Virus record (IMG/VR): IMGVR_UViG_3300030430_002904
Coordinates: 1-31,545 of that record
Length of the DNA stretch: 31,545 nt
Strand: one strand, 5' to 3'
Source: a virus
Shown: positions 14,786 to 16,893 of the stretch, one piece after another
Layout of the letters: each line of letters opens with the position of its first letter
How positions within the stretch are numbered: the stretch's first letter is position 1
Notes under the pieces: model-generated
What the model saw: only the letters and a program-made list of their open reading frames with translations
Databases searched by the model: none
What the model was told of the DNA's origin: nothing
Program-made: the position numbers and the translations under genes

Positions 14786-15202
14786 GTGGATACAGAAAGG
14801 GCGGGGAAAATATTGGAGATGCATGGCCTTACGAAGAAGGCGTTTGCGGAGATGCTTGGGGTAAAAGCGAGTACCGCGCGGATGGCGTTCAGCCTGAAGA
14901 GGTTCAGCAAAAGGATGGTGGCTAAACTGGAGGAATTGGAGGATGAATTACGGATTGAGCAGGATTTAGCGGAAGTTGACGAGATGATAGAATCCGTTGA
15001 GCAGGATACGGAGGATATTGAGAGTGGTGAGCGGGAAGCGAAGATATACGGGGTGCCTAAGAATAGGTTTTTGCGGTTGATTGAGTTTGAGGATGGTTCG
15101 CATGGTAAATTCCGCAGTAAGCCCGGTAATTATTTGAAGCTTGGGGAGAATGTACGGGTGAAGCATTTGGATAGGGATATGTGGGAAGTGGTCCGTGGTT
15201 AA
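14786..15202 (+). CDS. Helix-turn-helix regulator with basic C-terminal domain
   Basis: A 138-residue protein. Residues 4-50 (RAGKILEMHGLTKKAFAEML, then GVKASTARMAF) form an XRE/Cro-like helix-turn-helix. Residues 50-85 are an acidic helical linker, and residues 88-138 look like a small beta domain (RFLRLIEFEDGSHGKFRSKP). The GTG start is preferred because the first helix would be lost from the next start (M12, 14819). It may be the repressor or an early activator. It heads a rightward operon that continues into the sigma4-like and methyltransferase genes. Confidence 0.7.
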   Translation: MDTERAGKILEMHGLTKKAFAEMLGVKASTARMAFSLKRFSKRMVAKLEELEDELRIEQDLAEVDEMIESVEQDTEDIESGEREAKIYGVPKNRFLRLIEFEDGSHGKFRSKPGNYLKLGENVRVKHLDRDMWEVVRG

Positions 15203-15680
15203 TGTTGAACAGAGAGACTTGGTTGAGTGCTTATTTAAGTTACTGCCTGATAGTGAGCGCGGACTTCTTGAGATGAGGTTTTTTCATAACATGTCATACC
15301 GCAGGATGGGGCATGAGTTTGGAGTTAGTATAGAATGTGTTCGTCAGGCGGTTGAGAAAATCCTCAAGGAATGCCGGAGGCTTATGAAGTATATTGACTT
15401 TGGGAAGACTAAGGGGGAGTTGATTGTCATACCTGTGATAAATGAGAAATCTTTACTCTTTAATCACGATGAAAAGAAGAGGCTCAAACTCGTTGCGGAG
15501 AAGGAGGAGCTGAAGAAGCTGAGAAAGGCGATACCTGGAGTGCCTGCGCATTTCATTGAGTATTGCTTGAAGCATCACGCCAGTAGTTGGCGATACCACG
15601 TGGAGAATGGATTGTATGTGCATCCTTTTTTCAAGGAGTATTACTACAACAATAAGGAGAAGTTTCTGAAGTGTGGATAA
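15195..15680 (+). CDS. Sigma-70 region 4-like transcription regulator
   Basis: A 161-residue protein with GTG start overlapping the upstream stop by eight bases; GGAAG lies upstream. Residues 17-66 (LPDSERGLLEMRFFHNMSYR, then GHEFGVSIECVRQAVEKIL and KECRRLMKY) follow sigma-70 region 4: the LP.xER..LE.RF helix, the GxS turn and the recognition helix. No region 2 is present, so it is not a full sigma factor. The C-terminal half is basic and not recognised. It may bind -35 DNA and/or RNA polymerase to redirect transcription, for example to late promoters. That is an inference. Confidence 0.7.
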   Translation: MVNVEQRDLVECLFKLLPDSERGLLEMRFFHNMSYRRMGHEFGVSIECVRQAVEKILKECRRLMKYIDFGKTKGELIVIPVINEKSLLFNHDEKKRLKLVAEKEELKKLRKAIPGVPAHFIEYCLKHHASSWRYHVENGLYVHPFFKEYYYNNKEKFLKCG

Positions 15681-16581
15681 TACCCAAAACATTATCAGCT
15701 TTTGTACAGGATACGGAGGGATTGAACTTGGACTTAGAAGAGCGGGCGTGGATGTACGCACAATCTGCTACCTGGAGATCGAAGTTTATGTCCAGGCAGT
15801 ATTGGTCAAAGCGATGGAAGAAGGGCGATTATGTTCAGCACCTATTTGGAGTAACGTTAAATCCTTCGATGCACGACCGTTTCGTGGAATCGTGGACGGC
15901 ATCACTGGAGGCTTCCCATGTCAGCCATTTTCAAGCGCCGGAAAACGAAAGGGACAAGAAGACCCAAGGCACTTGTGGCCAAGCATCGCAAATGCAATTC
16001 GACTTTGCCGACCAAGATGGGTCTTCCTCGAAAACGTGCCTGGATTGGTTACCCTTGGGTTGCGTGACGTCTTGCAGGACTTGGGACAAATGGGTTACCG
16101 AACGACGTGGGGCATATTCTCAGCGGAAGAAGTTGGCGCTCCGCACCAGAGGAAGCGGGTCTTCATCCTTGCGAGGTTGGGCAACCCCCCAAGCGAGCGA
16201 CCACGTGGAGGGCGCGAGAACTGCGAAGGAGAGCAATCAGAAGTGCTTGGGGAGAGACTTGAATCAGATGCAGAATTGGCCCACCCCGCGAGCGCAGGAA
16301 AGCACGGAGAGTTACGAGACTTTAAGCAAGAGAAAAGCAGGAGCAATGAATATGACTGCAATGGTGAAACTATATGGCCCGCCCGCCCCGGAGAAGAGCA
16401 GTACGAGTGGGAAGAACCACGGGTCACCGAAGCTCAATCCGAATTGGGTGGAGCAGTTGATGGGTCTGCCTGTGGGGTGGACCCAATTGCCAACAGAGTG
16501 GACCGACTGCGCCTCCTCGGAAATGGCGTTGTCAGCCAATGTGCAGAAATAGCGTGGAGAACTTTATGGCAAAGAATTTAA
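15673..16581 (+). CDS. dcm: DNA (cytosine-5) methyltransferase
   Basis: A 302-residue C5-methyltransferase with the main conserved motifs: motif I FCTGYGGIELGLRRAG (10-25), motif IV GGFPCQPFS with catalytic C83, motif VI FLENVPG (E120-N-V), motif VIII APHQRKRVF (157-164) and motifs IX-X RLRLLGNGVVSQ (278-289). The region 170-275 between VIII and IX should be the target-recognition domain. It transfers methyl groups to cytosine C5, probably protecting phage DNA from restriction. It starts at GTG 15673, overlapping the sigma4-like gene by eight bases. Almost the whole gene is overlapped in the +1 frame by a second long frame. No cognate restriction nuclease was seen nearby. Confidence 0.95.
   Translation: MDNTQNIISFCTGYGGIELGLRRAGVDVRTICYLEIEVYVQAVLVKAMEEGRLCSAPIWSNVKSFDARPFRGIVDGITGGFPCQPFSSAGKRKGQEDPRHLWPSIANAIRLCRPRWVFLENVPGLVTLGLRDVLQDLGQMGYRTTWGIFSAEEVGAPHQRKRVFILARLGNPPSERPRGGRENCEGEQSEVLGERLESDAELAHPASAGKHGELRDFKQEKSRSNEYDCNGETIWPARPGEEQYEWEEPRVTEAQSELGGAVDGSACGVDPIANRVDRLRLLGNGVVSQCAEIAWRTLWQRI
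15752..16552 (+). CDS. Overprinted +1-frame protein (WPTP / LNPxWVExLMG family)
   Basis: This frame lies entirely within the methyltransferase gene, shifted by +1. It is open from GTG 15671 to 16552 (293 codons). I choose ATG 15752 (266 residues) because the family-like pattern begins there. Counting from GTG 15671, the motifs are SATWRSKFMSRQYWSKRWKK (32-51), WVTERRGAYSQRKKLALRTR (141-160), two proline motifs WATP (170-173) and WPTP (203-206), and LNPNWVEQLMGLPVGWT (255-271). I recall these motifs from stand-alone phage proteins of unknown function (recollection, not searched). A random frame staying open for 293 codons has a chance of roughly (61/64)^293, under one in a million. No strong Shine-Dalgarno sequence precedes the ATG. 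Expression is unproven. Confidence 0.6.
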   Translation: MYAQSATWRSKFMSRQYWSKRWKKGDYVQHLFGVTLNPSMHDRFVESWTASLEASHVSHFQAPENERDKKTQGTCGQASQMQFDFADQDGSSSKTCLDWLPLGCVTSCRTWDKWVTERRGAYSQRKKLALRTRGSGSSSLRGWATPQASDHVEGARTAKESNQKCLGRDLNQMQNWPTPRAQESTESYETLSKRKAGAMNMTAMVKLYGPPAPEKSSTSGKNHGSPKLNPNWVEQLMGLPVGWTQLPTEWTDCASSEMALSANVQK

Positions 16582-16660
16582 GAGCAATCCTTCCTGTGGG
16601 CTTAACGGCGCTAGGCAAACATGATCACCTCCGCGACACTCGGCGGGGAAGGATTGCTCT
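16581..16660. repeat. 14-bp perfect inverted repeat downstream of the methyltransferase
   Basis: AGAGCAATCCTTCC (16581-16594) and GGAAGGATTGCTCT (16647-16660) are exact reverse complements separated by 52 bases. A second small stem (CCGC 16631-16634 with GCGG 16643-16646) abuts the right arm. As RNA this would be a long hairpin beginning at the last base of the methyltransferase stop and enclosing the ATG at 16621. No T run follows, so it is not a standard terminator. Confidence 0.65.
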
Positions 16661-16893
16661 ACATTTCGATGGATGACATGGATTATTTATATTGTCCTTT
16701 TATTAGCTCGGAAGAGATCAACCGTGGATGGCGAAAGTTTTGGGCAAATTGCGAATTACGCTTCCGAAAGGGTGAGCGAGATCCTGATTGTCCGAAAAAT
16801 ACATACCGCACGGACATTCAGCGTAAGATGCCAACCGCTAAATCAGAGTTAAAGTATAATAATGAGCGAAGAAGAGGCAAAAAAGCAGTATAA
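16621..16893 (+). CDS. Hypothetical protein
   Basis: A 90-residue protein of unknown family. The part from residue 17 (MDDMDYLYCPFISSEEINRG, then WRKFWANCELRFRKGERDPD) looks protein-like, with a basic tail (NNERRRGKKAV). ATG 16621 lies in the loop of the inverted repeat. ATG 16669, just after the repeat, may be the real start, leaving the hairpin in the leader. Neither has a strong Shine-Dalgarno sequence. Confidence 0.6.
   Translation: MITSATLGGEGLLYISMDDMDYLYCPFISSEEINRGWRKFWANCELRFRKGERDPDCPKNTYRTDIQRKMPTAKSELKYNNERRRGKKAV

Follow-up and report, generated by a model that had tools for sequence, protein, structure and literature searches.

The window, that is, the whole stretch of DNA that was analysed, is a viral record of 31,545 bases in which two same-strand ORFs are superimposed at a DNA methyltransferase (MTase) locus (Table 1). 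ORF A is a predicted C5-cytosine MTase chain and ORF B is a protein read in the +1 frame over it; both lie exactly where the first-pass annotation had placed them. The gene located upstream (15195-15680, 161 aa) encodes a sigma-70 region 4 domain (PF04545, 3.9e-8; phrog_1740, 5.1e-10) and its stop codon falls in the region where ORFs A and B start, an arrangement that suggests translational coupling, while the 90-aa ORF downstream of the MTase (16621-16893) is without a PHROG or Pfam match.

Table 1. Features of the overlapping methyltransferase locus, in coordinates of the window.
Feature	Position	Strand	Basis
ORF A: predicted C5-cytosine methyltransferase chain, motifs I-VIII and X	15673..16581	+	302 aa, GTG start; PF00145 E=9.2e-37, phrog_363 E=8.9e-61
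ORF B: +1-frame protein over ORF A, predicted recognition/motif IX chain	15671..16552	+	293 aa, GTG start; phrog_1008 E=2.5e-23
GTGTG, overlapping start codons (ORF B at 15671, ORF A at 15673)	15671..15675	+	RTG at -2 in 40/40 non-redundant GTG-start homologues
AAGGAGAA, Shine-Dalgarno-like, common to both starts	15653..15660	+	sequence; SD-like string upstream in 33/40 homologues
+1 motif SATWRSKFMSRQYWSKRW, R36 and K38 invariant or nearly so	15764..15817	+	alignment of 47 +1 proteins
+1 motif YSQRKKLALRTR, R152 and K154 invariant	16115..16150	+	alignment of +1 proteins
MTase motif VIII segment GAPHQRKRVFIL	16135..16170	+	invariant columns, MTase alignment
+1 WxTP cassette 1 (WATPQASDHVEGARTAKESNQKCLGRDLNQM)	16178..16276	+	recurs at other positions in relatives
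+1 WxTP cassette 2 and linker (WPTPRAQEST...)	16277..16429	+	alignment of relatives
+1 motif IX-like segment KLNPNWVEQLMGLPVGWT	16430..16483	+	ORF A frame unconstrained here; profile match to in-frame single-chain MTases, prob 81%, E=1.2e-5
MTase motif X segment RLLGNGVVSQCAEIAW	16510..16557	+	conserved; confident AF2 C-terminal helix

The overlap of ORFs A and B is beyond chance. A +1 opening of 292 codons is reached by 1 of 20,000 synonymous recodings of the window MTase gene (median 110), and in 106 distinct MTase homologues the +1 frame is open across essentially the whole gene, an openness reached by 79 of 31,800 synonymous recodings with an expected mean of 6.3 stops per gene; in the same homologues the +2 frame contains 8-34 stops per gene. 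The +1 opening exceeds 85% of the ORF A length in 100 of the 102 complete window-type genes, and the +1 frame, whose breakage in homologues the first-pass annotation had proposed to look for, stays open. Scans of viral contigs with ORF B as query retrieved 236 relatives and those with ORF A largely the same contigs; mycobacteriophage Graduation used as query against viral contigs gave only its self-match. Three further MTase lineages fetched with ORF A only, of Paenibacillus phage Shelly type, phage K1H type, and Acinetobacter phage ABMM1 type (213 distinct genes), are characterized by a median +1 opening of 75%, 89%, and 98% of ORF A, respectively, with 14-18% in the +2 frame, and the +1 openness is also found in their AT-rich members. 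The overlap is present as well in loci from 80 bacterial and archaeal genome contigs. Overprinted or split MTases also occur on contigs binned to Poseidoniaceae and to another euryarchaeote (loci L507, L508, and L513), which are possibly archaeal viruses or mis-binned phage contigs.

The start codon of ORF B is conserved. Among 40 non-redundant window-type MTases starting with GTG, the codon two bases upstream is ATG in 32 and GTG in 8 (RTGTG). The start pair of the ABMM1 type is ATGAATG, with the +1 ATG at +4 in 69/74 genes; in the K1H type ORF B starts inside ORF A, with an ATG at +106 in 45 of 78 genes and at +88 in 31 of them, and in phage K1H itself the annotated 'Mte8-like' ORF begins 88 bases into ORF A.

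Selection on each frame was measured by an OLGenie-like pairwise estimator of our own, which is not the published OLGenie program, and the window-type sample consisted of 44 pairs with each sequence used once. Excess constraint, named as a check by the first-pass annotation, was found on the +1 frame in all four separately sampled lineages, with dNN/dNS of 0.51-0.70 in comparison to 1.16-1.27 in the control frame, values obtained from pairs that are in part phylogenetically dependent and without a model of transition bias, the controls being the +2 frame and the regions outside ORF B. In the window type, the whole ORF B gives a +1 dNN/dNS of 0.51 [0.46-0.57] and a dSN/dSS of 0.28; the corresponding +2 controls are 1.16 and 1.03, and ORF A gives 0.36. 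Purifying selection on the +1 frame is mostly found only between ORF B's own start and stop: after the ORF B stop of the window type dNN/dNS is 0.90 with an interval that spans 1, the K1H type, in which ORF B starts inside ORF A, is without a selection signal upstream of motif IV (1.03), and the Shelly type has 0.83 in the same region, again with an interval that spans 1.

Along the window-type ORF B, the +1 dNN/dNS is 0.52 in codons 1-26, 0.49 in codons 27-80, 0.59 in codons 81-170, and 0.47 in codons 171-254; it falls to 0.21 [0.15-0.27] in codons 255-272 and is 0.79 in codons 273-291. The recognition region of ORF A evolves nearly neutrally by the same estimates and, in particular, codons 255-272 have a dNN/dSN of 1.56 in ORF A's own frame against 0.21 in the +1 frame; therefore, the DNA of this stretch is kept for ORF B. 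The motif IX segment is similarly constrained in the +1 frame of the other lineages (0.24 in the Shelly type, 0.16 in the K1H type, and 0.18 in the ABMM1 type).

The assignment of ORF A as a predicted C5-cytosine DNA methyltransferase chain is based on motifs I, IV (PCQ), VI (ENV), and VIII, present as invariant columns of the alignment and in the PF00145 match, and on the conserved LGNGVV near the C-terminus, which corresponds to motif X (GNxV). A Foldseek search with its AF2 model retrieved M.HaeIII (4.8e-12), M.HhaI, and DNMTs. This model, built on a shallow alignment of 28 sequences and in which low pLDDT of the middle region is no proof of disorder, has a mean pLDDT mostly of 75-95 over residues 1-171, below 50 over residues 172-283, and of about 90 over residues 284-302, and disorder is predicted for the part separating motif VIII from motif X. 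Neither motif IX nor a folded target-recognition domain (TRD) was recognised in the ORF A frame, where residues 172-283 are those of low pLDDT and the motif IX stretch is the one with a dNN/dSN above 1; for this reason, the status of single-chain C5-MTase is not claimed for ORF A. The description of the MTase motifs as intact, previously given on inspection of the sequence, is thus correct for I, IV, VI, VIII, and X and has to be amended for IX, whose segment KLNPNWVEQLMGLPVGWT lies in the +1 frame.

The claim that a second real protein, matching a phage protein family, is encoded over the MTase is borne out by purifying selection and by phrog_1008, a database match shared by the window ORF B and by 47/47 aligned window-type B proteins. 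Searches of ORF B against Pfam and NCBIfam gave nothing convincing and a profile search of the PDB gave zero matches; its AF2 model is poor (mean pLDDT 55) and, the fold being unsupported, it was left out of the fold search. The N-terminal half is conserved both in the alignment and in the selection estimates by region, and homology of residues 1-165 to any MTase part was not found. The C-terminal half is a run of WxTP cassettes of about 30 aa followed by the terminal segment LNPNWVEQLMGLPVGWT; the cassettes number 1 to 7 per protein in a rough count, a few N-terminal hits in it being false positives, and their order varies between relatives. A first regular expression for motif IX was too strict, and most of the loci that it missed had the motif in the +1 frame on inspection; a second, which no single-chain MTase matched, gave way to an alignment. 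As for the register of the two frames, the first-pass annotation had put YSQRKKLALRTR on the bases of motif VIII, but it begins about 20 bases upstream of GAPHQRKRVFIL, with which it shares just the first 16 bases of the latter; for ASSEMALSANVQ (16511-16546) the placement on the motif X segment is correct.

Members of phrog_1008 include, besides the window ORF B, the K1H 'Mte8-like' protein and the SHELLY_56 'internal gene', and the same profile matches ORF B of the split MTases of Drake94 (6e-89), Catdawg, and ArV1 and residues 177-361 of the single-chain RitaG MTase. In single-chain actinophage MTases (RitaG, OldBen, and relatives) cassettes of the form LLPTPxxxD and the segment EWMMGWPxGWVT are located in-frame from motif VIII to motif X. 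In the split enzyme of Drake94, Catdawg, and ArV1, ORF A contains motifs I-VIII and ORF B, in the +1 frame and overlapping the end of ORF A by about 190 nt or more, contains the cassettes, the segment, and motif X. Comparison of the +1 profile with the single-chain MTase profile by hhalign gave the match over the motif IX segment reported in Table 1, and HMMER aligned the single-chain C-terminus colinearly on M.HhaI KLHPRECARVMGYPDSY...GNSVV with 0.6 bits, below significance alone. The C-terminal half of ORF B is homologous to what follows motif VIII in the single-chain actinophage enzymes and, in the split ones, to the second ORF, a Rosetta-stone argument that crosses lineages, the split and fused forms being those of actinophages and a few other genomes. 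The ordered motifs attributed to the +1 frame are, in the conserved C-terminal half, not a novel set but the cassette region and motif IX segment of these enzymes.

In a census of viral (35) and genome (80) loci, ORF B is found in the +1 frame of A or else fused in A's frame (9/35 viral and 2/80 genome loci), and the split form with motif X in B accounts for 21/35 viral loci. The census contains zero loci with B only, and the MTase is present in the other frame in 80/80 loci fetched with the ORF B protein; a stand-alone family often encoded near MTases, as put forward in the first-pass annotation, is not supported. Among Gram-positive and Acinetobacter relatives, an indel in L178 and L334 lets the MTase frame continue into that of the +1 cassettes and motif IX, with loss of motif X; these are recent frame fusions. 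Another annotated DNA methylase gene is located near the split or fused MTase in ArV1 (L409:2516-2951) and OldBen (L410:2795-3196).

The locus probably encodes a two-polypeptide C5-MTase with a recognition/motif IX chain encoded over the catalytic one. This reading is due to the homology of B to MTase parts, to the fusions and splits, and to the reciprocal absence of parts in A and B, and it is made plausible by the natural two-polypeptide C5-MTases already published (M.AquI and M.EcoHK31I). Chain A would provide the catalytic motifs I-VIII and X, without a recognisable folded recognition domain; chain B, which starts two bases upstream of A, has its ribosome-binding site in common with A, and is read in the +1 frame, would bring the WxTP cassettes and the motif IX segment. 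Both chains would be made and associate into one enzyme, with B acting in target recognition; shuffling of the cassettes would alter specificity, and the enzyme would modify phage DNA, for example against host restriction.

It is unlikely that ORF B, although real, has another job as MTase regulator or inhibitor, anti-restriction factor, or unrelated DNA-binding protein; such a role would suit its conserved N-terminal half devoid of MTase homology and its lack of a Pfam or PDB relative, but the C-terminal half is homologous to part of an MTase, occurs in split and fused versions, and is exactly what is missing from ORF A. A partner of the enzyme was one of the roles listed in the first-pass annotation; nothing points to the inhibitor or anti-restriction factor also listed there. 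Very improbable is a programmed ribosomal frameshift after motif VIII, fusing the catalytic part of A to the cassette/motif IX part of B and leaving B's own start unused: despite the comparable indel fusions of actinophages, upstream of such a site the B frame is conserved, free of stops, and under selection from B's start codon onwards, none of which a frameshift product needs, and the overprinted class would have motif X out of frame. Hardly any weight is given to a dual coding in which ORF A alone is a complete MTase and ORF B is what a frameshift left of an ancestral recognition domain, now in decay, since relics, however much the C-terminal half of ORF B resembles an ancestral MTase part, lose purifying selection, yet the motif IX segment has 0.16-0.24 in four lineages. 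Finally, a shadow ORF, opened by codon bias and similar between relatives only as a mirror of MTase DNA conservation, is ruled out, as the apparent +1 and +2 identities both climb with MTase identity but openness is rarely reached by recodings, dNN/dNS in four lineages is far under 1 in the +1 frame and close to 1 or higher in the +2 frame, with the signal lost at the ORF ends, ORF B start codons are conserved, and AT-rich members are open too. Plain +1 identity against a synonymous-shuffle null was rejected as uninformative because this null destroys shared ancestry and the +2 frame also exceeds it.

Beyond the window, we lean slightly towards the view that the C5-MTases of phages and prophages include a very large class of two-chain enzymes, annotated at present as single ones, with the recognition chain in +1 of the catalytic chain. 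Phages and prophages with the overlap number in the hundreds and include those of Proteobacteria, Firmicutes, Cyanobacteria, and other groups; genome loci of further bacteria and archaea have it as well, and almost always just one gene of the pair is annotated. Both overlapping ORFs are annotated in K1H ('Mte8-like protein') and Shelly ('g55 internal gene'), PhiXhv-28 has two MTase ORFs, and phrog_1008 members are annotated without function or as 'DNA methyltransferase'. In Synechococcus phage Ssp-JY39 (L156:1501-2616) the +1 protein is annotated and the MTase of the other frame is unannotated. Among the openly accessible papers searched, none describing the MTase/+1 overlap was found; the overlap has already been noticed by some annotators and two-chain C5-MTases are already published. 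The pair would rank among the longest and most widespread of same-strand gene overlaps in phages, and would offer an explanation for a recurrent oddity of phage MTases, the repetitive, disordered-looking region in place of the recognition domain, besides offering a concrete correction to annotation pipelines. If the two-chain reading is true, new specificities would arise from the reshuffling of WxTP cassettes under the constraint that both frames stay readable, and an enzyme cloned as the annotated chain only would be inactive or non-specific. The need of these MTases for a second chain and the evolution of specificity with cassettes locked into two frames are now testable questions.

Known systems share single aspects of this arrangement. 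The small chain of M.EcoHK31I is reportedly nested in the gene of the large chain in another frame, and the same is said of M.EaeI. The ShiLan domain is a homing insertion of about 195 codons in a phage DNA methylase gene with an out-of-frame HNH endonuclease (PMC11855218); the likeness lies in the out-of-frame protein within a phage DNA methylase gene, but here the overlap spans the whole MTase and ORF B has no HNH or other Pfam match, and an HNH homing insertion of this type was ruled out, ORF B matching nothing in Pfam, NCBIfam, or the PDB. M.AquI alpha/beta is a natural split in which one chain has motifs I-VIII and the other has motif IX with the remainder of the variable region (PMC3404938); AquI beta also carries motif X, which here is located in ORF A. 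The split MTases of Drake94, Catdawg, and ArV1 are nearer to M.AquI, although theirs are overlapping ORFs. With K1H and ABMM1 B proteins as queries for EcoHK31I-like plasmid loci, relatives were found under genes mostly labelled 'DNA cytosine methyltransferase', without an EcoHK31I label. According to the part of PMC3404938 that treats M.EcoHK31I (YGGCCR; Lee, Kam & Shaw 1995), the large chain has motifs I-VIII and X and the small chain only motif IX, and, by the same account and a title cited there, both proteins are needed for methylation in vitro. By motif layout ORF A, with motifs I-VIII and X, and the second chain, with motif IX, match this enzyme; the differences are that its large chain, as described in the same part of PMC3404938, also has a predicted TRD, whereas here B has variable WxTP cassettes, and that ORF B spans almost all of A from a common start. 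M.EcoHK31I is the closest precedent.
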